In this document: piece after piece, positions 30,611 to 64,000 of the stretch
Numbering within the stretch: the stretch's first letter is position 1
Layout: each line of letters begins with the position of its first letter
From: Saururus chinensis
Lineage: Eukaryota > Streptophyta > Magnoliopsida > Piperales > Saururaceae
Reading direction: 5' to 3'
Length of the DNA stretch: 64,000 nucleotides
NCBI GenBank assembly: GCA_035235625.1
Contig: CP141140.1
Location: forward strand, 25,130,685 to 25,194,684
Translations under genes and position numbers: made by a program
Notes under the pieces: model-generated
Databases searched by the model: none
What the model saw: the letters and a program-made list of their open reading frames with translations, nothing else
Told to the model about the DNA's origin: nothing

Positions 30611-32149
30611 TAGTTTTATATAAACATGTCATTATTATTAGCACATATATACTATATGTATATGTGGCACTACAACGTCTTCTACATACTCCAACCTTCT
30701 TTTGGTTGTATGAAATATATTTATTATTTGATAACATAAATTTTCTAAATGTCTACATTAAATTCTTACTTCAAGTGTCATCTTATAACCACCAAAAATA
30801 AAAAAAATAGTGCCTTTGTGGTTAACTACATTTGTGTATATGAGATATTATATATGAATGTATATTATTTATTTCTATTTAACAAAAATATAAATTTTAA
30901 TAAATATCTCATATATAATATATGTATATTATGTCTCTTTAAAATATTTACTTCCAAATAATTTATATGTGTAATGTGTAGGGGTGCTAAGGAGCTAGGT
31001 CTAGTCGAGTTTTAGTATGTGGGAACATGAAACTTGATGCCTTGTTGTCTTCGACCCATCCCAAATAAATATATATTACCCTAATTTTATAAAGAATAAA
31101 AGAGACTCCATGACTCAATGCTAAAAAATATTTATTAAGTTATTGTAAAATTCGAATTTCTAAGGATTCCAATAGTAGACTTCATAGAAGATTTGAAAGA
31201 ATATATCATAAATTGTTTGACATGTAAAGATAGTAAATAACATTATCATAGCATATTGTCTAATGATTGACATATTGTTTGATATGTAGTACAATATATC
31301 CCATTTTTTTACTTAGTTGTATATGTATGTATATTATTAAATATTATTTCTATGATATATCTGAATTTCAATACATATCACATGTGGACATATGTGTATA
31401 ATGTGTCTTTAAATGTTTACTTCTCAAAAATATATATCATGTGTGATATAAGCCAACACTACAACAAAATGTAGTATTAGCGACGCAAAGTTAAGCGTTG
31501 CTAAAAACAACAATTTGCGACGAATGAAAAAGCGTCGCAAAAAAAAGAACTATTAGCGACACATTTTCTTATACGTCACTAATGGTCGTATATTAGTGAC
31601 GTGGAGTTTAAAGTGTTGATAATACTAATCATATTAGCGACGATTTATTATAATCGTCGCTAATCGTTCCTCTATTAGCAATGCTTTATAAAACCGTCGC
31701 TAAAAAATATATTTTAAATAAAAAAGAAAAAAAATAACTATTAGCGACACTTTTCTTAAGCATCGCTAATAGCTTTCACAATAGTGACGCTTAGTCAAAA
31801 GTGTCGCTAATAGTGCTGCTATTAGCGACGCTTGCAAAAGTGTCACTATTAGTGGCGCTTTAAAATAAAAAATTTAAATTATTAGTGGCGCTTTAAAATA
31901 AAATAAGCGTCGCAAATACCATCTCTAATAGCAACACTTGTTAATTTTATTTAATACATAAATATTAAAAAAATTATAATAAACTTCCAAAATATAATAT
32001 ATTTTATTCAATAGTTACTATTTTATAAACAATAAATAAATATTTAATTTTTAATAAAAATAAGTGTTAATAATAGATTAAACTTTCATTATATATATAT
32101 ATATATATTTTAAATTTTATTATTAATTTTAAAATATAATTTATAATAA

Positions 32150-33565
32150 ATGAGAGAGTGAAGAGAGTGAATGGAGAGAGAGAGTGAGAGTGAGGAGAGA
32201 GTGAAGGTGAGGAGAGAGAGGGATTGAAGAGAGAGAGAGAGTGAGGTGAGAGAGGGATCAAAGAGAGAGAGAGGGTGGAGAGAGAGAGTGGGAGCCCGAT
32301 AGCAGCCCATTTGTAATTAGTTATACGGGCTTGGGCCAGGCCGGTCAGACTAGCTCAAGGCCCGTTTGCCAACCCTAGTGGGAGGAGAGAGAGGGAGGGA
32401 GAGAGGCTAGAGAGAGAAGAGGGTGGAGAGAGGGAGGAAAGCGAGAGGAGAGAGAGAAGAGGGAGAAGAAAGGAAGAATAGAGAGAGAGAGAGAAGAGAG
32501 AGAGGGTTGAGAAAGAGGAGTGAGGAGAGAGGGAGAGAGAATAATTTTTTTTAAATTTTTTTAATATTTTTTATTTAAAAATTAATTAAAAAATAAAAAA
32601 TAAAAATATATTAGTGATGTATATAAATATACATCGCTAATACCTCAGAGTATTAGCGACATATATGTTTATACGTGTCTAATACCTCTAAGTACTAGCG
32701 ACGTATAGGTATATATGTCGCTAATACCAATATTAGCGACGTATAACCCTATGCATTGCTAATATATTTTTATTTATTTTTCAAATTAATTTTTAAATAA
32801 AAAATATAAAATAGAGAGGATATAGAGAGAGGGAGGAGAGAGAGAGGAGGGAAGAGAGAGGAATTTTTTTATTTTTTTATTTATTTTTTATTTATAAATT
32901 AAAAAATAAAACTTTATTTGCGACGGATAGGCATATACGTTACCTTTGAGTATTAACGACGTATAGGCATATACGTCGCTAATACCCTTATTATTAGTGA
33001 CATATAACCCTATGTGTCGCTAATATATTTTTATTTATTTATTTTTACTTAATTTTTAAATAAAAAATATAAAATAGAGAGAGGAGAGAGAGAGTGAGGA
33101 GAGAGAGAAGAGAGAGGGAGGGAGGAGAGAGGGCGGGAGAGAGAAGAGGAGAGAGAGGGGGAGAGAGAGGGCAGAGAGAGAGAGAGGAGGGAGGAGAGAT
33201 GGAGAGAGAGGAGAGAGGGGGAGAGAGAGAGGAAAGAGGGAGGAAAAAGTGAGATGAATTTTTTTAATTTTTTATTTAAAAATTAATTAAAAAAATTTAA
33301 AAATAAAAATGTATTAGCGACGTATAGGCATATACATCGGTAATACCCCTTCGAGTATTAGCGACGAATAGGCATATACGTCGCTAATACCTTTATTATT
33401 AGCGACATATATCCCTATGCATCGCTAATACATTTTTATTTATTTATTTTTAATTAATTTTTAAATAAAAATATAAAATAGAGAGAGGGGGAGAGAGGGA
33501 AGAGAGAGAGGAGAGAGGGTAGAGAGAGAAGAGAGAGGGAGGGGAGAGAGAAGAGTGGAGAGATG
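32150..33565. repeat. Composite tandem array inside the CACTA element
   Basis: Blocks of GA-rich sequence (about 32150-32300, 32380-32540, 32815-32865, 33075-33250, 33478-33565) alternate with blocks of the form TTTTATTTAAAAATTAATTA followed by a pair of GCGACGTATA...CGTCGCTAAT motifs. The spacing of a few hundred bp suggests tandem amplification of one composite unit. Confidence 0.75.
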
Positions 33566-33769
33566 AATATTTTAATTTAAAAATAATAATATGATGTCGT
33601 TTAGTATTAAGCATCGCAAATACTATATCCTTTGCGACACTTACAACTAAATGTCGTAAATAATATATACGATTGGAATGTTTATTGTTAAACATCGCAA
33701 TAAATTTTATTTTAGCTAAAGGTTATCCGCACGGGAAAATTTCCCTTCCGAACGCAGAATATTTTTTTC

Positions 33770-34545
33770 GTGTGTGTGGTATTTATTCCACTCCCCCCTA
33801 ACGACCCCTGCTCCACCCTACCTCCACCCCGCATGAGAAATTTTTACAGCCACCGCACCTCCACCCTGCCTCTGATGGGCCGGCCGCCGCCGCCCAGCTT
33901 CGTCTTTGCACCTGCTCCACCTGCTCCCTCCCCCTCCGCCGTCCGTTCTCGGCACCGCCGTCTTCCATTCTTGGCCACCGCCACTCCGGCTCTGCCCTCC
34001 TCCCTTACCCTCCCCCTTGCCCCCCCTCATGCCCGGTCCCCCTTCCCTTCCCCTCCCCCGCCCTCCTCCCTTCCCCTTGCCCTACCCCCGTCGCCGCCGG
34101 CAGAACTCAGCCACCCCCGCGCCAGCTCCGCCTCCTCCCTTCCCTTCCCCTCCCCTCGCCCCCTCTCCCCGGTCCCTCTTCCCCCTCTGCCTGTCCTCTT
34201 CCCTTCCACTCCCCTCTGCCCGCCTCCCTTCCCCTTGCCCTACCACTGCTGTCCCGGCCTCCCTCCTCCTCCCCCCTCTCTCCCTGGGTGCTTTTCCCAT
34301 CCCCTTCTCTGTTTTAGAGGAGGGGGTTGGTTCCGGCAGAGATGGGGCAGCGGGAGGGAGGCTGGGACTGTGGGGGGCTGGATTCTGTCGGGGACCCAGA
34401 ATCTGGCCCTCTCTCTCCGGCCTCCCTCTTGCTATCTCCTCTCTCCCCCGGGTCTGCCCACCTCCTTCCCCTCCTCTAGTTTCCAGAGGAGGGGAAGGAG
34501 GGAGCCGGACTAGGGGAGAGTTAGGGGGTGGCCCACCACCCCCTC
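33770..34545. other. GC-rich, pyrimidine-biased block inside the CACTA element
   Basis: Base composition jumps from very AT-rich to strongly C- and T-rich on the + strand. Near-repeats such as CCTCCCTTCCCCTTGCCCTA occur near 34065 and 34220. Two overlapping + strand ORFs of 234 and 247 codons exist, but both are Pro/Ser/Leu low complexity with no domain. A captured host promoter/UTR or exon fragment is possible. Confidence 0.55.
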
Positions 34546-35435
34546 TCTCTAAGGTTTTTAGCGATGCTTATAAAAGCATTGCTAAAGGCTTTTTTTATTT
34601 TTCATTTTAAATTTTAGAAGTATTAGCGACCTTCACAAAGTGTCGCTAATACACAAAAATCTTTTTTTTTAAATATGTTTTTTGATTAACGACATTTTAA
34701 ATTATTTATTTATTTTTTTGTTATTAGCGGCATATAAAAAGCGTCGTTAATAATCAATTATTAGCAACGCTTTTAGCTATGCGTCGCTAATAAGTTGTTA
34801 TTTATTTTTTTTAAAATAATTTTTAATATTAGCAACATATAGTAAAGTGTCGCTAATAATCAAGTATTAGCGACACTTTATTATTATACGTAGTTAATTA
34901 TCTACTATTAGCGAAGTTTTATTGTGCATCACTAAACTAAAATTATTAGTGGCATACGTATAAATATCGCTAATGTGCACTATTAGTGACACTTTCCCTA
35001 CGTGTCACTAATGAGCAATAGCGACTCGTGTTTTAGCGATGTATGTAGCGACACTTATACTATTATTAACGACATTTAGAAGCGTCGCTAATAGTTTTTT
35101 TTGTTGTAGTGCAATACTCAATACATAGACATTATATATTTATTAATATCATACAAATTTGTAATATATATGTATATGTTATAAATGTAAATTGGGATTG
35201 ATAATTGTGTACATGTATGCATAAGTGTCAATACGTATTTATGTATATTATGAAATATATTTGCGAATTTCATTCGAGTTCAAGTTTTATTGGAGCCGAG
35301 TCAAGTTGAGCTAGGATATGCTCGAACTCAACTAAAAAATATTCGAATTCAAGTTGAGCTTGAGCTGAGCTACTTTGAGTCAAGGCACCTTTGCTCGATG
35401 AGCTGGCTCAACTCATTAGCACCCCTACCTGTGCC

Positions 35436-35772
35436 CCCTTCAAGATACTATTTAAACTTTTGGCGATATTTGTAGTTGTCATACCAAATCTTCTAAAGCC
35501 ATCATGAGCAAGAGACCACTGTTCAGGATGTAATCTTTCTCTTGTGAGGAGTTCTTTTGTCCTTTGACTTTCCTTACCAGTTAAGTCCATTTTAACATCA
35601 ATTTGTTCGACTGTCAATGCACATGCAGCTGCCCCAATCAAATTTGTTAGTGTATCATTTTTAAACTTCTTAAAATTTGCCTTTATATAACAAATGCAAT
35701 ATTGATGGTAGAAGAATGGAGGGGGAAAATTTCCAGTCATGGCCTTTTGAAGCCCCTTATGTTGATCTAAGA
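35436..35772 (-). pseudogene. mudrA-like: MULE B transposase, mid segment after the DDE domain
   Basis: The - strand reads DQHKGLQKAM, FFYHQYCICYIKANFKKFKN, LTNLIGAAACALTVEQ, HPEQWSLAHDGFRRFGMTTT and NIAKSLNSILKGAQ. This is the MURA pattern SD..KG+..A+...FP...H.YC.RHI..NFK, then W..A.DGG.R+G+MTTN+AES.N..LKGAR. At 35436 the frame is cut by the hAT-like element and resumes at 29658 as LSIQALVSAIFYR, in phase. The segment upstream of the DQH motif is lost, at a junction with an LTR-like element. Confidence 0.85.
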
Positions 35773-35777
35773 ATGCT

Positions 35778-38236
35778 TCAAGTGGGTTATTCTCATGTTT
35801 GTGCTTTAATGGTGGGTTAAATAAAACATGCTCTTTTTAGTTATTTTCTTTTGATTTAGCTTGGAAATGACTAGATCTATCATGCCTTCAACTTGTATTT
35901 CAACATTATGAGGTTTGGAAGTAATATTAGGGTTTTCTTGTCAATTTTGTGTATTTTAGTTTAGGGTTGCAACGTTGAAGACGAACTAGTTTTTTAACTA
36001 TCTAGGGCATTTGAATAGCCATATAAGCATTCGAATGGCTGTCTACCTGATCGAATAACCAGGCGTTCGAACGGCCATTTGGCCATTTGAACTACCAAAG
36101 GACATATTTGCCTTCTCAAGTACTTTGTCCATTTCTTGTTCCCCTTTTCATACCTCTCATTGCTTATGCTTATAATGAGTTACTTTTACTTATAATGTTA
36201 CTATGAATGCATAAATACTAACTTGAAAGCTATGATGTAGTTCAAGCATAAATTAGGTTTATATTGTTCGATTTTAATATGATGTTCCCCTTATCCTAAA
36301 TTCATGTTGGATGATTCTCCATGTTTTATTTATGATTCCAATAAGTTTAATTATGAGGATGGGTATGCATGCTTACACATGTTGTGCTAATTATTGGTGA
36401 ATTATATTTCTATATCTAGCTTAAGTGTAGTGATGACTATGTTTACATAAGTCTAGCATGAAGTTGCAATTGGCTTGGACTTGTGTTCTTCGAGATTTTC
36501 ACCATATTTTATTCATGATTTCAGTAAGAAGGAGCCATGATAAAAATCATAAAGGTATGTGTGTAGTATGATGATGGTTTGTTCATGTTGCATATGTCTT
36601 TGCTTAGATTTGAACACTATTATTATGTACACATTTGTGAAGTTAATTGTGGTGATTATTTGCACAAATGAATTAAGAATGATGCACATATTGACTTATT
36701 GGAGCATATCTCATGTATTAGGATTCATGAAATGTTGCTCACGTATGTACCATGTTGCATGCATCATGAAAATAATTTATGAATGAGATTTGTCGTGATT
36801 AGCCATAATTGATTGATTGAATGACATTGCTTGTTGCATTAATCAATCAGAGGCTTATCAATTCGGTTTTACATCCAAAAGGATTAGGTTTTAGGTCTAA
36901 GGACGGGGTTTTACGTCCCTTTGAGGACGGGTTTTGTCCTCCCTTGGTTGAGAAGAGCGGCAATGCTATAACGAGTTAAATTGTTGAGTTTATTTGGACC
37001 TTGAGAATCCAGGATGGTTTGTTCGAGCGCACTAGCTTACCAAGGGCACTTTCCCCACTAGGGATCTTACCCAAACTGTCCGTCTCCTTTTAGGACTTCA
37101 GACTTTCTTGTTGGGGATTGCTAGGAGTGCAGGTTTGCTTATACTTTGGCCGATTAAGCAGGGTTATTTTCTCTATGCATGAGACATCCAATAGTTTTTG
37201 TTGTTGGATGTGTATGTGATATTATGCTCAATTACACGGTGGATGTGTAGGGATGAGGGAGCTTTTGTTACACATATTTGTATTGATTAACTTGCATGTT
37301 GTGTAGGATAGTGTGTTTGAGACACTTGTTGTGCAGGGTGAATGTTTGCATTGAGAATAGATGTGTATGATATGTTATGTTTTATAGTCACTCATGCATG
37401 TTGTGCTTATGTTACACATGAGGTGTATGATGAATGTGAAGTTATGTTGAATCCATTATGCACAGGAGGTATATAACATTTATGATGAGATGTGATGGGT
37501 GATAACATGTTATGCAGATGAACTTGAATGATGTGATGTTATGATATGTTATATGGTATGGTATGCAGGTGATATGATAATGTTATCATGAGTAGATGCT
37601 TATAGAGGGTAACTCATGGTATAAATGCATAAGCTATTTATATATCACATGATGAATGGGTATGATGATGTGATGAACCTTATGTGATTTACCCATGATA
37701 ACTTTTTGATTTTCCTTTTGTAAATTAAAAACCATGCTGAGTTTATTTCTCACCCCTCTTTCTTGTGTTTTTGTTTGAAGGCTACATGCCGTGACATGTA
37801 GGTAGTCAGAATTCACTTTATGAGGAGCGGGTGGGTGATGATCTAGCATAGGAAGGGCTATTCAGAGATCTTGTGCTCCATGATCATTTACATTGCTTGT
37901 TATATTGAGTTTTATGTCTATTTGGTTATGCTTTATACTCGACTTGTAGAGTTCTACTTAGACTATTATTAGCCTATAAGGGCTTAGACTCAATTACTTA
38001 AGCCATGAGAGGGTTATGTGCACTAAGTGTGTGGGCATTACGTGGACTAATACTTAGATTGTGATCTTTATTTTTTCTCATTCTCTCTTATACAAAGCTT
38101 ATGTACGCTACTCCGTTATGAATTACCCATTTTAGGGGTTATGTTTTTCGCATTGAACACTACTTCGTTGTGTCGTGCACACGGACCTTCCCTTGGATCG
38201 GGTCCAGCTCAAGTTGGTGGGTGCTGGGGCGTGACA
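35778..38236 (-). mobile_element. LTR-like element next to the MULE B mid segment
   Basis: The right end GCTGGGGCGTGACA is, on the - strand, the common plant LTR start TGTCACGCCCCAGCACCC. The 5-mer ATGCT lies just outside both proposed ends (35773-35777 and 38237-38241). The left end reads TCAAGTGGG rather than TG, so that boundary is uncertain. Internal stretches such as the GAGGAGCGG segment near 37830 resemble the LTR element 16570-20000. No protein domains are seen. Confidence 0.5.
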
Positions 38237-56400: not shown

Positions 56401-57775
56401 CATTTTTATTGATCATTTTTTTGTGTTGACCAAATTTTCACATTGAATGCACTATAACAACATAAATATCGTTTAAAAATTTGATTCTTAATAGCCATCA
56501 ACTTATGTGTGTGCATCCATGCAAAGAAAAGATGTGTAGATTGTTCACACTTTTTCTGATCTCCAAATCTTACCATAAACTCTACAGAGAAAATTTTGTT
56601 TTTGTATATATATAATTTAGCAACATTGTCAATTGTTACTAGCCGTATCAAATGCAAAATTATGAGCACAAGAATTACAGCTGCTTTATAAGAGCTACTT
56701 CCAAATTGTTTGCAGCTACTTTGCAACATTAATTGCCAGATTACAATTTAAGCATTCAATAGCTGGTCTCAACCATGAAATTTCTCAGCCAAAATGAGCA
56801 GTTCGCATCAAGAACCATACTTTCAAGGGAATACATATCTTCAAGAATCCAATAAGATCCAACCATATCTGCCATTCCCAGTAACTACATTACTAATTCC
56901 TCAAACCCTAGCAATACTGACAAAATGCTTTAAGATTCAGAACCTCCATCTTTTTCGAGATTAACACCCAGGCTAAGGTGGTATTCAGTAACATACTGCC
57001 CTCATCATCCCAAGCATCATTAATTCAATTTAAACAGAGTTCGATATTCTGATATTCTGATATTCAATTTCAATTTTTTCTTTTTAATTAAAAAAAAACA
57101 AGATATACAAATGTGAACAGCGACGCGACGATGAGACAAATCAAAAAGATCGCCTATGGGATAAACGAACCACCAACTACAATCATCTCAGTGACGAGCA
57201 TCGACAACAATCTATTGTTAGAAATAATATATTGAATATGGCTAAGAGAAATCAACCTTTCTTTATTTGATTTGAAAAGTTAATCAAAACAACGCAAACA
57301 AATAAATTTTTTGACGCATAATTTTTTTAAAAGTACATGTTTATTTACGTAAGGCATTTATGCCGACATACCTTCTGGAGACTCCCGCAAAGCAGTGCAC
57401 CAGCACCGCTCCCTCTTTCCGGCTTTCGTCGATGAAGTCGAGACAGACGTCCAAGTAGTCCAGCAGGTTCTCCGTCTCCATGTCCCTCAGCGGCACGGCC
57501 ATCCTCACCAGCTTCAGCTCCGGCCCCGCCTGCTCCACCACGCACAACAGCTTCCCGGAACCACCACCATCACCACCCCCGACGCCACCGGCGTAGGCTC
57601 GGCGAATTTCCTTGGTGGGGATGGACAGGCCGGCCCTCCAGTCGGAGAAGAAAGAGATGGAGGCGGAGCTCAGGAGGGAGAGGACATGCGTCACCCCACC
57701 ATCCCCCTCCTGCAGGACCTTCGCCGCGCCGCCTATGTCGCCGATGAAGAGCCGCTCCCGCACCAGCGTCGGCAT
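50457..57775 (-). CDS. YVH1/DUSP12-like dual-specificity phosphatase with C-terminal zinc-binding domain
   Basis: Six exons on the - strand join in phase: 57775-57372, 55285-55233, 55084-55020, 54903-54825, 53053-52763 and 50611-50457, giving 348 aa. All introns are GT-AG. The start MPTLVRERLFIGDIGG matches the family; an in-frame ATG 14 codons upstream (57817) is an alternative. The phosphatase domain spans about residues 1-190, with the P-loop HCFAGVSRS (His127, Cys128, Arg134) split across exons 1 and 2 and Asp98 as likely general acid. A Gly-rich insert lies at residues 63-74. The C terminus has the YVH1 zinc-binding domain: Cys240, Cys243, Cys284, Cys309, Cys312, Cys326, Cys328, with GYFNWSGIQCSCGSWITPAF. 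Yeast YVH1 and human DUSP12 act in late 60S ribosome assembly through this domain; the plant role is inferred. A MITE sits in intron 5. No defects are seen. Confidence 0.96.
52140..52345. mobile_element. MITE with about 40-bp inverted repeats in intron 5 of the YVH1-like gene
   Basis: CCTACACCACTTTCCGTCCA (52167 onward) and its near-perfect inverse (TGGACAGAAAGTGGAGTAGG, ending near 52316) form terminal repeats that continue into GTTTTG/CAAAAC. CCTTTTTAAAAGG and CCTTTTAAAAG outside the repeats suggest a 9-10 bp duplication, which would fit a Mutator-type MITE. Confidence 0.6.
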
Positions 57776-58020
57776 TTCCCAGAATCTTGATTCCCACGGA
57801 AAGTTCTTTCCACCCAAAGAATATCAGTGACTGCAGCGCGCATTTGACAGTTTCCCGAATTTCGAAGATTCAGAGCCGACTTACCGCGGATTTGACGCCC
57901 CGATGAAAATGGCGGAAAGTTCGGTTCTTTCCGCTTGGCGGTTGGCGCCCACTCCCCTCCCCCGCTAGCGCTTTTATCGTCACGGGGCCGCGGCCACACG
58001 CGTGTCTCACACATGTGAGT
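57776..58020 (-). promoter_or_regulatory. GC-rich 5' region of the YVH1-like gene
   Basis: The first exon and the sequence just upstream are markedly GC- and CpG-rich compared with the surrounding AT-rich DNA, as often seen at plant gene starts. No TATA box or specific site could be assigned with confidence. Confidence 0.4.
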
Positions 58021-60130
58021 CGTGACATGGCGGCCGTAGGCCCGGCTGAGAAGGGTGTGCTGTAATTTCTACGCGCTTTATTTCACAACATTTTCAAGTC
58101 GCATACGATATCGTCCAGATCCAAATCGACGGTTGAGGTAAATTTGCGGGATAAATGCGTGAGATCAGCTGCGTAAAGATAATCATTGTGCATTTCGAGA
58201 TTTTTTTGTACGTGAAGGAAAAGGAGAGGAAGATTCGTTAATGATAGCTGTGGGTGGGTCCCGTTTATTCGGCGGCTAATGCCACGTAGCAATGCAGATG
58301 TGGGCCCCGCTCCATGCCCTTTCGTCACCGTCTTTTGTGGTTTTGCATGAAAATCCCTCGCCCTAACGTTCCTTATCCTAAACTCCCTTTATTTTCTTTT
58401 TACTTGGTAAACTTTATTTTTTGAGAAAATTGTTTGTCTTCCCCGTGGGGTCCTCTAACTAATCCTCTACCAAGAGTTTCCATATTACAGGAGTCGTCTA
58501 GTATTAGAAGTGCTTTTCATAATCTTCACTAATGTGAGCTAGGGTGCGTACTATTAATTTTAAATATAATTGGTTACTATACATAACTTAAGTAAGTTTA
58601 TTGTTAATGAAAAACATAAAAAATACTTTCTTATATGCATATTGGTTGTTACTTGGCCCTAATACATATGTTATTAACATATGCGCTATATTAACATATG
58701 TGCTATCGATCTTATGATCAACAATTTTCCTCAAAGTGGAGGATTTTGTAAAAGACAATGGGGTGGATCCAAATTTTTATTTCTTTTGTCACAATTTTTG
58801 CAGGGCTTTTTTCTCTTTAGGTAAAGCTAATCACAATCGTGAATTGGAAGACATGATCCCAATATAGTAATAACATGACTCACGGTGCCAATTACCCTTA
58901 AGACTAAAAAAAATATAATGTCTCGTGGCAGTAATTAAGACCTAGTTTTCAAATTTTAAAACCCACATTCTATTGGTTGTACATAAGCATATGGGTTTTT
59001 CTTGTAGATTTAATAATAATATTTTACTAATAATTTTTTATTAATATTTTTTTGTGTTAAATTAATAGTTATATTTTATTAAATTTAAGTGATTAGGTGC
59101 TTAAAAAAGAGTATAATAAGTTTATTTTTTCTCTATTTAATAAAAATTATTATTATTTTAAATATAATTATTAATATAAAATAAAAGAAATATGTAAGTT
59201 ATGCCTTGTCGTAGGTACTGAATTTCATCACTTTTTAAGTTCAAATATACGATAGAACTCATGCCTAGACTGCCTAGTGGAGGCAAAATTTTATAGCTAC
59301 TTTGGGTTTTCTAAGGAAAGCAGGTTTCTCAATGGAAGTAGGAGAGCTGACTTTGTAAACCAGTAAAAAACTTGATGTGATGTTTTTGACTGGTAAAAAA
59401 CTCTAAAGCGAAACATTTTATCCTCTAAAATGGGGGCCAAACAAAATTTTAATTTGTGTAACATATATAAAGGCAGTGTTGGAATGGGAAAAAAAAAGGC
59501 TTAAAGTGACTTTAAAACGTTATCTTCTCTCGAGGAATTTTGAAGCTGCTTCGCTTTAGACTTTAAATCGCATCCAAACGGTGTCTGGGTGCTGTTAAAA
59601 TAATTGAGTTGAGTAAAGAGGTTATTACCTCAAGCATCTATTGAACATGCCAGCAACTTGTAATAAACAAAAGAGTTTTTTCAATATTGCTAGGATGAAG
59701 AACACACTATTTTATATATTCTAGATTTTAAATATAAATATTATATAATCTATTTATAGATGAAACTGTCCTTATATTTTAAATAAACTCATTATCTTGC
59801 ATGATATAATAAATGAACACAGGAACACTGTTGCGCCATTTTGGTGTTCTAGGATTTATTAGCGGACAACGAAAGTCACTGGCCTGAGGTGACCGGCAGT
59901 GACTCCCCAGCGAGATTTGTTATTCATTAAAAGATAATTTTTTGACACGCCAAAAGTTGTTTAAGTGCTTAAAAGGTTGCATTTCACAAATTTGATCACC
60001 TATTTACACTAATTATGGATAAGATCAACATTTGCATACATTACACCGAAGAGGTAGGCAATAATGACATGCATATAGTAGAAATGCATGTTTGATAAAC
60101 ATTGATATGTCTGTGAGGTTTGGGGAGCTA
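58021..60130. other. Intergenic, no recognisable gene
   Basis: AT-rich sequence with short ORFs only. Tracts such as TATTAATATTTTTTTGTG near 59040 are low complexity. A fragment near 59500-59600 has TE-like texture, but no ends were found. Confidence 0.5.
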
Positions 60131-60179
60131 CTGCTTCAAGTGAAAACATGACTTGCTGTTAATGGTATTGTCACTTTGA

Positions 60180-63100
60180 AGTATTTAATTTCATCTTTTC
60201 AATCATCTATGATATATGAATTACAAGACGGTGAGAACCTATAATCAGTGTTCTCCATTCATAAAAAGGGAAATAAAGAGGTGTTATCATTATATGCTAA
60301 GATGAAAAAGCCCAACAACGGTGACAAATCACCATATGTAGAAAGGAACCAAACAGTTAATAGAGCTAAATCACCTGTCGTAATGGCACAGCCCAGCAAT
60401 AATGTTGGATTTCAAACCGGAGTCAATGAAACATAGTTCACTTTTGAAACTGTCAGGTAACAATAAATTTTTAGATTACACAAGATTGTACTTTATCGTG
60501 TACTTGAGAACACGATATCGAACATATCGTGTTAAGCTCGAAGCATATCGTGTGAAGCAAAAACATGATTTATAATCTATCACATAAGTAATGATACGAC
60601 ATACACATGCGATATATTAATAATATTTTTAGTGTAGATGCAATAACACGACATGTATGCATATCGTGTTATTGATAACATGATATAAAGTGTTAGCGTA
60701 TAACCAAATACACAATGTCGAATTATATCGCATTTTTATTAATACGTTAATATACAATGCAAATTGGGAGAACTAAAAAACTTGCCCTCAACAAATCCAT
60801 GTCATTCTTTTTTCACCAATCCAATGACTACAGAACCTGGGATAGATTTCAATTAGAATGGATTAGAAGAATTGTTGCCAACAATGGGCACGACAAGGAC
60901 TTTGTTTGGTAATCATCTCCAAACAACCCTTTTAATTACACTAGTGAAGAATTTCAAGAAATGTGGGGTGACGATCAGTGGAACAATAATGATATAATTG
61001 ATATGGAAAGTATGTCTCACCACTAAGAATTCAGAAACAACGAGGTCCCTAATAACTTTGAAGTTGAGGCGGATGCAAAGTGGGAGACAGTAGATGGTCT
61101 AAACCTGTTGGAACCGGATATTAGTGAATGCCAGCTAATGACTTGCAGTTTGCAAGCAAAGGATTACCAGAAGCTCCTCGAATTGGGCACACGTTTCGTA
61201 AGCCATTTTCATTTCAAGAGGGTCTTGATCGACTTAGTAATAAAGGTGAATTTCACTTACCATGTTGTGGATGAAAACATGAATATGTACACTACAAAGT
61301 TGTCCAATCATTCTTGTAACTGATACATAAGGGCTTCAAATATAGGAGAGCATGTGACTGTCACAAGGTTAGTGTTGAACCATTCCTATGGAACCGAAAG
61401 GAAGTCAACTGAACATCCCCTAGCGTGTCACACTTTTGGATTGCGAGAAAATGTTATGGGTTGTTTAAAGACTCAGTAGACATTACACTTAAGAGCATAG
61501 CAAGTTATATTTTGAAGCACTAGGGCATAACTATGAACTATAAGAAATACTGCCATGCAAGTAATATAAACTTAGGAGACTCCTTGAAGCATGTGTTCTG
61601 TAACACGACATTTAATATGGCGTGTTATCAAGCACACAATAAGAATACCATCACATTTTCTTATCACACAACTTAATTACATATCGTGTTAACATGAACA
61701 TATGATTTATTTGTTATGGTTTACAATCTCATGACTACAAACAATATCGTGTGATCGGGAACACATTTCATGCACTTGTCATATAATGTTTATTAAATTG
61801 TATTCGTTCGTGCATGTAAAGCACTGACTGATTTAATAGATGGGGAACTAGACAAATCCTATCGAATACTTCCTGCTTATGGAGTTTAGATAGAACATAT
61901 AAATCTAGGAAGTGTAGTTGTTCCAATAAGATCATGTGATATTCCTAGACCTATAGTGGAGTATGACTTTAAAAGAGTATTTTGGATGTTTGGTCCTGTG
62001 GCCAAAGATTTTAGAACAACTTTGAGGTAGTTGCTAATTGTAGATGCAACTTTCTTAAAGGGAAAGTATCCTAGACAGCTCTTGATAGCGACTGCACTGG
62101 ATGGGAAGAATAATATGTTGTGTGTTGCATTTGCAGTGGTTGAGAACAAGTGTGAGAAAATATTGTGCTAGTTTCTTGACAGCCAAGTTGGATACAATTG
62201 TTTTTGATAGAATGAAGCACTTGAAAAATGCTGTTAAGGAGTTTTTTCCATCTACACACCATGGATATTGCATCTGTCACATGACAGCAAATATGCTTGA
62301 TAGATTTAAGGACAACTGCCTAAAGAACCAGCTCCATGTTACAACCGAAACTTTCAAACAGAATGTGTATGAAGAAACAATGAACAACACTAAAGAACAC
62401 AATCCCAAAGCATATGCTTGGATAAATAAGATAGGTTCATAGCATTGGATCAATGTCGCATGTCCAAGAAAAGGATATGGAACCCTCAGCTCAAACAGGT
62501 CTAAAAGTGCTAATGTAATATTCAAAAAAGTCGGATTGATTTCTATAACTCAGTTAATTGAGCATACAAGGGAGCACATGACCGCATTATTTGATAAACG
62601 TCGGAGAGATGGCCAGAATATGATAGAAGATTTAACCCCATTGCTCTCAAACACATCAAAAATAGGTGTGAAGAAGCAAGGAATGTGCATGTATTGCATG
62701 TGTAAATGTAGGAATTCTAGGTTAACTCGCTATATCACCAGGTATATTACGTTTATACATTGTTGTCCATATCGTGTGTATGTTTACACGTTAATTGTCC
62801 ATATCGTGTAAGTCTGTATGTTTTACTTACACGTGGTATGTTAGTCTTACGGGTTGTGTGACCAATGACACGACTCGTCCATTTACCGTGTAAGTGTCTC
62901 TATTTTACTTGGTATGGTTAGCCTTACTAGTCGTGTAATTGATGACATGACATTGTCCATTTATCGTCATCTCATTCACATGATATGTAGTGAACGGGAT
63001 GTTGTGAATCTCATTGAACGTAGCTACATATGTGGAAAGTTTTAGCATTTGGGGCTACCGTGTAAACATGCAATTGCAACAATTGATCACAAACACTTCT

Positions 63101-63432
63101 ATGTGTTTGACTACTATGAAAAATAGTAATCTACAGAAACATATAGATTGACCTCTAGAGAGTTAGTACACCCAACAAAAGATAGGCACCAGTGGGCATT
63201 GACTGGAGTTCTGCCTACATTCAGCCCACCTATCCCACAAAGGTAGCGCGGGCATCCACAAAAAAATCAGATAGAGTTACAACCAAATGTCAAAGCCCCA
63301 CGAAAATGTGGAGCATGCGAGCAGTTGGGTCACAACCGCAAACGATGTACCAGCGCACAAGGTGAACCTCCCAATGTGACAGATGTTCCAACTATAAGCC
63401 GAAGGAGGGCGAATAAACAAGTAGGAAAATGA
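60180..63432 (+). pseudogene. mudrA-like: MULE C transposase (MURA): PB1-like, DDE, SWIM and zinc-knuckle parts
   Basis: Coding-like blocks are: about 60180-60470 (PB1-like, ending in EVLSLYAKMKKP); 60840-61590 (YQKLLELGTRFVSHFHFKRV, VNFTYHVVDENMNMYTTKL); 61816-62700, the DDE part (FKRVFWMFGPVAKDFRTTLR, LLIVDATFLKGKY, LCVAFAVVENKCEKI, HHGYCICHMTANMLDRFKDN); about 62990-63125 (YICGKF, then HLGLPCKHAIATIDHKHFYV, a SWIM finger); and 63280-63432 (KCGACEQLGHNRKRCTS, a CCHC knuckle, ending at a stop near 63432). VDAT carries the first catalytic Asp. The gaps between blocks behave like introns and hold the ATCGTGT repeats. In-frame stops (for example after KTTLR-type and GKF segments) and frameshifts show it is dead. 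Confidence 0.83.
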
Positions 63433-63672
63433 CGTAAGGAAAGGAAGCATCAATCAGGGCTCCCTTTTCTAGCCCCATTCTTTAGCTGATGGATGGAACA
63501 CGATGTCATGAACATTTTTGTATATGCATCGTGACATCGACAACATGCACTAGTTAATCAATGTGTTGTCGAGAACACGATATTTTGATGTTTTTTTGCA
63601 TATAGTGTACACTATATATATCGTGTAATCGGTAACACGTCCAAAGGTTTTACATGTTACCAATTACACGAT
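60495..63672. repeat. Dispersed ATCGTGT/ACACGAT motif, 12 exact copies
   Basis: Exact copies start at 60495, 60510, 60526, 60547, 60663, 61683, 61746, 62771, 62803, 63575, 63620 and 63666, in both orientations. Near-variants (ACACGACAT, GTCGTGTAA, CCGTGTAAG) lie among them. All fall between the coding blocks or after the gene. Only isolated copies were noticed elsewhere, at 19672 and 53555. Confidence 0.9.
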
Positions 63673-63796
63673 AAGAAACGACTATAGTGAAGATTATACT
63701 ATTGCTAGACATGTCACCAATTACACAATATTGGTCATGTCATGTGATCATAAACAAGACAATTTCTTGAATTTAGCCACCTAATTCCGAAGGGTA

Positions 63797-64000
63797 ACTC
63801 TCATTTACAACATCAACATTTCTCGAAGAGTCGCCACAATTTCCAGCGTATCAATTAAATTTGAATCACCAATTTCCAATGTTTCAAATTCGGGCCGAAG
63901 ACGACAATATGGTAACTTGGACCAACAAGAAATATATGGAAAGAATTCATTACCCAATCCTACATGATATATGGGAAATTTTCCATAACCTTCTAGATCG
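63797..64000 (+). CDS. Open frame running off the window end, unidentified
   Basis: After a TAA at 63794-63796 one + strand frame stays open to the last base (68 codons). It reads SFTTSTFLEESPQFPAYQLN, then HQFPMFQIRAEDDNMVTWTN and ends YPILHDIWEIFHNLLD. Composition is protein-like and has no low-complexity bias. It directly follows MULE C, so it could be an exon of a second MULE gene. I do not recognise a domain. No start codon can be assigned. Confidence 0.3.

Follow-up and report, generated by a model that had tools for sequence, protein, structure and literature searches.

Why should a seven-base word crowd the non-coding parts of a transposable element and spare its coding parts? This question is raised by a 64-kb stretch of the Saururus chinensis genome (the window), near whose right-hand end lies a decayed Mutator-like element (MULE) that we call MULE C. 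The word is ATCGTGT, or ACACGAT when read on the other strand, and only exact matches to it are counted here as heptamers. The motif pattern of MULE C is genuine, extends across the family and has an exact geometry, and its explanation has gained a candidate factor, encoded by an accessory gene in longer copies of the element. We believe that MULE C is probably a decayed copy of a MULE family with terminal inverted repeats (TIRs) that supplies its own anti-silencing factor, a sequence-specific protein like the VANC proteins of Arabidopsis.

Heptamer clustering in the window copy

The window holds 17 heptamers, whereas 3.38 are expected from 100 dinucleotide shuffles of the same 64 kb, the most extreme of which contained 9. 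Thirteen of the 17 fall within positions 60495-63672. An original prediction, made from the letters of this DNA, had reported 12 heptamers in the same interval; the cluster stands as described, although exact matching adds one site, at 63498, between the stop codon and the 3' flank named in that prediction. Similarly, there are 12 copies of the 8-mer TATCGTGT in 60461-63760, compared with none in the preceding 60,460 bases. The anatomy of the copy is as follows, in window coordinates (position p of our locus L009 equals window p + 58815).

59673..64000, plus strand: MULE C, a truncated dead copy, delimited by alignment with 19 other genomic copies
59673..59696, plus strand: end of the 5' TIR, GAGTTTTTTCAATATTGC..., matching the inverted 3' ends of L015 and L010
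60456..60789, plus strand: intron 1 or non-coding block with five heptamers; ends intron-like by eye, limits approximate
60495-60516 and 60663-60684: a perfect palindrome and a palindrome with 13 of 14 matches, both within the intron 1 block
60790..61594, plus strand: coding block A, N-terminal part of the transposase (DBD_Tnp_Mut-like), with stops, heptamer-free
61595..61818, plus strand: intron 2, exact heptamers at 61683 and 61746, the latter in a 12/14 palindrome
61819..62741, plus strand: coding block B, catalytic region of a MULE transposase, with stops and frame changes, heptamer-free
62742..62990, plus strand: intron 3, two exact heptamers, at 62771 (in a 13/14 palindrome) and at 62803 (second arm unrecognisable)
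62991..63431, plus strand: coding block C, SWIM zinc finger and, by eye, a CCHC-like zinc knuckle, heptamer-free
63432..64000, plus strand: 3' non-coding region, exact heptamers at 63498, 63575, 63620 and 63666
63560 and 63620: 12/14 palindromes in the 3' non-coding region
Heptamer starts by exact-match count: 60495, 60510, 60526, 60547, 60663, 61683, 61746, 62771, 62803, 63498, 63575, 63620, 63666

The coding blocks are those of a broken MULE transposase. In block B, one piece matches the Pfam family PF10551 at 30.4 bits (E = 5.4e-7), above the cut-off of 27.6, and a second piece reaches 25.9 bits, below it. Block A gives a sub-threshold match to PF03108 (E = 0.0037; 17.3 bits, cut-off 25), and block C falls just below the cut-off of 19.6 for the SWIM family PF04434 (E = 0.0012; 18.8 bits). 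Homology to other copies runs past the window edge to about 64745. The copy is truncated, and neither a 3' end nor a target-site duplication (TSD) was found for it.

Distribution of the motif across the MULE C family

The S. chinensis genome that we searched comprises 516,460,831 bases in 11 contigs. When the transposase DNA of the window was used as the query, 42 matches were obtained from the best 40 of 1034 candidates scored, and these are 77-84% identical to the query if the self-match and two short pieces are disregarded. The 20 best places, including the window's own, were extracted as 10-kb loci and constitute our copy set. With flanks counted, the 20 loci carry 4 to 19 heptamers each, and L010 carries 23. 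The terminal sequence GAGTTTTTTCCATATTGCC is present within six mismatches in 12 of the 20 copies. One copy, L015, is full-length at 11.9 kb, ends in 80-bp TIRs that are 85% identical, and is bordered by a perfect 9-bp TSD, CTTACCAAA; a shorter copy of 6.06 kb, L025, has a TSD that matches at 8 of 9 positions. The family thus shows both a PF10551 domain above its cut-off (in the window) and a TSD of the 8-11-bp class (in L015), as a MULE should. The ratio of nonsynonymous to synonymous substitution (dN/dS) for the transposase is 0.34-0.66 in three pairs, for which open pieces were chosen.

The original prediction held that the coding blocks lack the heptamer, and proposed that the genomic copies be collected and the motif plotted block by block. 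We did so over the 20 copies, leaving out a copy wherever the block boundaries could not be placed in it or an insertion was present. Intron 2 has 9.0 heptamers per kb, with at least one in 19 of 20 copies; intron 3 has 8.5 per kb (at least one in 16 of 18 copies), the intron 1 block 6.0 per kb (14 of 20) and the 3' block 3.2 per kb (13 of 18). Block A has 0.5 per kb, its 8 heptamers being confined to 2 of 20 copies, block B has 0.2 per kb (4 heptamers in 4 of 20 copies), and block C has none in 17 copies. Coding blocks are therefore far poorer than introns, at 0-0.5 compared with 6-9 per kb, and those of the window itself (60790-61594, 61819-62741 and 62991-63431) are entirely free of the motif, as had been claimed. 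The heptamer is also the top-ranking 7-mer of the three intron blocks.

It had been conceded that the motif-bearing intervals might turn out to be independent nested insertions of one simple repeat. This possibility is ruled out, because intron 2 aligns over all 20 copies with its sites in the same columns. When CpG columns are set aside, identity within intron 2 is 92% in the motif columns and 84% in the others, and only 5 of 219 circular shifts of the motif positions reach this difference. Variants of the word are enriched as well. The forms expected from decay of the CpG are abundant (ATTGTGT, 61 compared with 15.5 expected; ATCATGT, 76 compared with 17.0), which would fit past methylation of the site. 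Also in excess are GTCGTGT (52 compared with 4.3), AGCGTGT (15 compared with 1.8) and the last-base variants ATCGTGA (21 compared with 6.4) and ATCGTGC (8 compared with 2.7).

CACTA elements as a rule have repeated short sites to which an element-encoded protein binds, and MULE C is like them in that a short word specific to the element is present many times. It might be argued, then, that the arrays are transposase-binding sites that serve synapsis, like the subterminal repeats of CACTA elements, and not anti-silencing. A CACTA element in the same window does have 30 copies of TCGCTAA within 31477-35085, and the MULE C motif is present in the 3' half of its element. However, CACTA words act at the element ends, whereas those of MULE C are mostly internal: many lie in introns far from either end, including introns of the accessory gene, and a 750-bp block on the 5' side contains a single heptamer in 15,000 bp (0.07 per kb; 1 of 20 copies). 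We consider a role in synapsis unlikely.

Geometry of the sites

For the same 20 loci, we examined the spacing of half-sites with one mismatch allowed per half-site. The commonest offset of convergent pairs is 15 bp, with 123 pairs compared with 2 at 14 bp and 5 at 16 bp; divergent pairs peak at 16-17 bp (97 pairs) and same-strand pairs at 31-32 bp (162 pairs). The unit is therefore a 22-bp palindrome, ATCGTGT-N8-ACACGAT, that recurs every 31-32 bp, or about three turns of B-DNA. Across the genome, palindromes with a spacer of 8 number 801, compared with 6 for a reversed control, whereas those with a spacer of 7 number 6 (control 4); the divergent form with a 10-base spacer occurs 224 times and its control not at all. 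The intron 2 consensus of the 20 copies contains three palindromes at intervals of exactly 64 bp, each with 14 of 14 matches if R or Y is permitted at the outer base, together with a further half-site in register with the lattice.

Such palindromes could in principle act as RNA or DNA hairpins, whether as cruciforms, as structure in intron RNA or as a source of small RNAs, since the unit could fold into a stem of 7-8 bp with an 8-base loop. To bear on this point, 474 sites from the 20 copies and two accessory-gene loci were picked arm by arm; an earlier count had used a joint threshold of 11 of 14 matches, which biased it against joint changes. Same-base joint changes of the two arms at positions 2-6 match independence (at position 4, 29 compared with 28.9 expected). 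They exceed it at position 1 (36 compared with 22.4) and at position 7 (9 compared with 1.6), although shared descent can mimic joint changes and the excess may have arisen because the copies are related. Spacing near whole turns of the DNA helix likewise speaks against the folded forms. The pattern of arm changes leans towards protein half-sites over base-paired stems, and we disfavour the hairpin explanation as very improbable.

An accessory gene as the source of a candidate factor

Longer copies of MULE C have an accessory gene 3' of the transposase, on the opposite strand and tail to tail with it, in which pieces of DUF1985 and Ulp1 domains are recognizable. In these copies the palindromic site RTCGTGT-N8-ACACGAY is common to the introns of both genes and to the intergenic stretch. 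The best-preserved accessory gene, in L034, has its exons in the order DUF1985, middle exons, an exon of tandem peptide repeats (recognized by eye) and Ulp1, and this shared order and strand suggest that the DUF1985 and Ulp1 exons belong to one transcript and protein. Its Ulp1 exon matches PF02902 (Peptidase_C48) at 39.8 bits (E = 5.8e-10; cut-off 20.7) over profile positions 83-190 of 217. Its DUF1985 match, over positions 15-139 of 141 (125 positions), is below the cut-off of 35.1, at 28.3 bits (E = 1.9e-6). At least 10 other loci of the MULE C family exceed the Pfam cut-off for DUF1985, by a hand count of the overlap, although one of these does so only when its neighbours in the frame are included.

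Accessory-gene copies were sought genome-wide with the best 150 of 1622 candidates scored. Apart from the query these are 73-84% identical to it, and by hand count the matched stretch is free of stops in about 100 of the 150. The dN/dS ratio is 0.16-0.42 in six DUF1985 pairs and 0.18-0.22 in three Ulp1 pairs. Both of the accessory-gene loci inspected for the motif (L034 and L035) have heptamers upstream and in introns, the introns being those implied by gaps between open frames.

A separate genome search with the Pfam DUF1985 profile, in which the best 150 of 957 candidates were scored, placed 146 above the cut-off by hand count. Many of these loci (for example, C8:15327708 and C8:21062971) lie outside the listed MULE C accessory matches and have higher Pfam scores. 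They are possibly further MULE subfamilies with motifs of their own.

Non-coding relatives and other genomic sites

The original prediction had the motif restricted to MULE C. Its bias towards non-coding parts is borne out, but exclusivity is not, for the motif is found in a related non-coding element and in some other places. The related element is the following.

C8, L025 position 9227 to L051: non-coding element of 1947 bp, adjoining L025, with MULE C-like TIRs

The ends of this element are 75% identical to those of L015 over 100 bp, and its TSD matches at 8 of 9 positions. It has no stop-free frame above 86 amino acids and no match to the transposase blocks, and its matches to the accessory gene are confined to motif-bearing introns. 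However, it carries 31-32-bp arrays of the 22-bp palindrome. The 3' part of the element yielded 57 matches from the best 40 of 1683 candidates scored. Thirty-nine long matches, with the element itself excluded, are 91-94% identical to it; each match covers the 3' part, and arrays were seen for L046. That locus, which was sampled separately, aligns to the element through the array and 3' flank over 736 bp at 73% identity. Mutual similarity is higher among the non-coding matches than among the coding copies, suggesting activity that was later and fairly recent.

These arrays invite a simpler explanation, namely that the motif spread by neutral, satellite-like slippage with no bound factor, the spacing being a relic of a 32-bp ancestral unit. 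Tandem units of 31-32 bp are indeed present in the non-coding element and in L046, tandem growth alone yields a lattice, and the conservation of the motif in intron 2 is modest. However, Tandem Repeats Finder detects no 32-bp array in the window copy, only two copies of a 21-bp unit, and the longest direct repeat between its blocks is 40 nt at 70% identity, yet the spacing is constant across copies. The better conservation of non-CpG motif columns in intron 2 is also contrary to neutrality. We would give slippage little credence.

Of the first 50 palindromes listed on C1, eight were sampled. Four lie in MULE C family sequence and two (L046 and L047) match the non-coding element or its arrays. 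Among the divergent pairs, 11 of 50 listed have a listed transposase or DUF1985 match no more than 12 kb away, compared with 0.5 expected. As a separate observation, the palindrome spacer of L044 (C1:11620550-11621349), AATCCATT, recurs at C1:9038576 and C1:26084801, and may be the mark of another repeat family.

Transposable elements often carry sites for host factors, and a host transcription factor might bind the motif and drive the element in place of an element protein. However, six of the eight sampled palindromes reside in repeats of the MULE C kind, and the element has a VANC-type gene of its own, so that a host factor strikes us as a distant prospect.

A proposed mechanism and its difficulties

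VANC proteins bind family-specific words in the non-coding parts and introns of their elements, and they demethylate their own family (PMC5735166, PMC10398659). MULE C has a DUF1985/Ulp1 gene of its own, a word of its own, introns filled with that word, exons spared by it and non-coding relatives, all of which match parts of the VANC and KIU systems. It is for this reason that we think it likely that the accessory protein binds the palindromes and relieves silencing. The original prediction, that this is a binding-site array for an element-encoded factor and possibly a new motif/factor pair, thereby gains support by analogy, since longer relatives carry a suitable gene and the geometry of the arrays suits protein sites.

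In the mechanism that we propose, the DUF1985, peptide-repeat and Ulp1 exons would form one protein, which, to judge from the spacing, would bind each palindrome as a dimer. Adjacent dimers, separated by three helical turns, would then share one face of the DNA and might bind co-operatively. Once bound, the protein would remove or block DNA methylation, which would allow expression and mobilization of the element and of the non-coding elements that depend on it, and the pairing of motif and factor would limit this action to its own family. The scarcity of the site in exons would have its cause in the difficulty of fitting such a word into codons.

A broader projection is that VANC-type self-recognition is not a eudicot invention, but is represented in a magnoliid by a TIR-type MULE whose dimeric DUF1985-Ulp1 protein reads 22-bp palindromes three turns apart. 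There is a CpG in each half-site, and its methylation might decide whether the factor binds, which would turn the element into a two-state switch. We offer all this only tentatively, and would sooner expect it to fail in some part than to hold in full.

Several observations weigh against the proposal that MULE C encodes an anti-silencing factor. The link between factor and site is drawn from co-occurrence and analogy, and the window copy itself has no accessory gene. The Ulp1 exon of L034 begins with a stop and that of L035 contains one (both by eye), so we do not claim that either gene is functional. The dN/dS values lean low because open pieces were chosen, and an AlphaFold model of the DUF1985 exon, with a mean predicted local distance difference test score of 33.2, is too poor to reveal a DNA-binding fold. 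The lattice has its irregularities, namely minor peaks among convergent pairs at 17 and 26 bp (18 each) and among same-strand pairs at 52 bp (21), as well as one off-register partial site where the intron 2 consensus ends. If CpG columns are kept, the conservation difference in intron 2 is small, and 21 of 219 shifts reach it. To these must be added the joint arm changes at positions 1 and 7 described above. Two of the eight sampled palindromes (L044 and L050) match neither the family nor the non-coding element, and of 50 listed spacer-8 palindromes on C1 one, the window's own, is within 12 kb of a match, compared with 0.16 expected, although this count says little because it covers just the matches listed. 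Finally, VANC21 motifs are all in one orientation (PMC5735166, in the part drawn on here), whereas the sites of MULE C alternate, although this difference is perhaps not a defining one.

Other features of the window

A second motif/factor pair, built on TCGCTAATA at 31-35 kb, was considered as a candidate and rejected, because these words are repeats of the CACTA element. That element spans 31457-35111, has the ends CACTACAACAAAA...TTTTGTTGTAGTG, and includes long GA-rich stretches. Its 30 TCGCTAA words occur mostly as GTCGCTAATA, at the middle and near both ends. Just outside the element is a minus-strand open frame at 35408-35836 that by eye resembles a fragment of a MULE transposase. About 1.9 kb from the 5' end of MULE C, a GC-rich exon of a dual-specificity phosphatase (DSPc, 3e-8) is present on the minus strand at 57341-57823.

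Comparison with known systems

A comparative study published in 2022 in the EMBO Journal reportedly names eudicots in its title, and its abstract is said to mention DUF1985, DUF287, Ulp1 and helical periodicity. The comparisons that follow draw on portions of the papers cited. MULE C resembles the VANC/VANDAL system in combining a MULE with a separate DUF1985 protein, a domain by which Arabidopsis VANC proteins are annotated (PMC5735166), and in having a short family-specific motif in introns and other non-coding parts, tandem arrays and peptide repeats. Its motif, which includes a CpG, is a different word from those given for VANC21 (YAGTATTAY) and VANC6 (AGTTGTCC or AGTTGTAC) in PMC5735166. 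MULE C also differs in its spacer-8 palindromes, its 31-32-bp lattice and its magnoliid host. The clear TIRs of L015 differ from those of Arabidopsis VANDALs, which are absent or short and degenerate. However, this contrast is weak, because TIRs of 46-174 bp are listed for some members of the VANDAL clade (PMC6446971).

The accessory gene is closest in layout to the KAONASHI elements (KI and KIU), the latter being the VANC genes that have a Ulp1 domain (PMC13317346). In both, DUF1985 and then Ulp1 exons lie on one strand, opposite the transposase (PMC13317346, PMC2528002). KI-MULEs are described as lacking TIRs, whereas L015 has TIRs of 80 bp and a 9-bp TSD. MULEs that carry ULP genes are known from grapevine, melon and rice, with TIR elements among those of grapevine and melon (PMC2528002), and they share with MULE C a Ulp1 region 3' of the transposase, which in them occurs in both orientations; a motif lattice is not mentioned for them in the part of that paper drawn on here.

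Our search of the open-licence literature found, among the entries listed, no report of a VANC-type system in Saururus or in any other magnoliid. According to a review, Ulp1 was captured when monocots and eudicots separated (PMC13317346), which would make a magnoliid case less surprising than under an origin within the eudicots. A motif array together with a DUF1985-Ulp1 gene in a magnoliid would fit an origin at that early split or earlier still, or else convergence or transfer. Detailed knowledge of sequence-specific anti-silencing comes from Arabidopsis; in a magnoliid we now see the same parts. Moreover, the preference for a spacer of 8 over one of 7 makes the lattice exact enough to constitute a strong prediction of how factors of this type read DNA.

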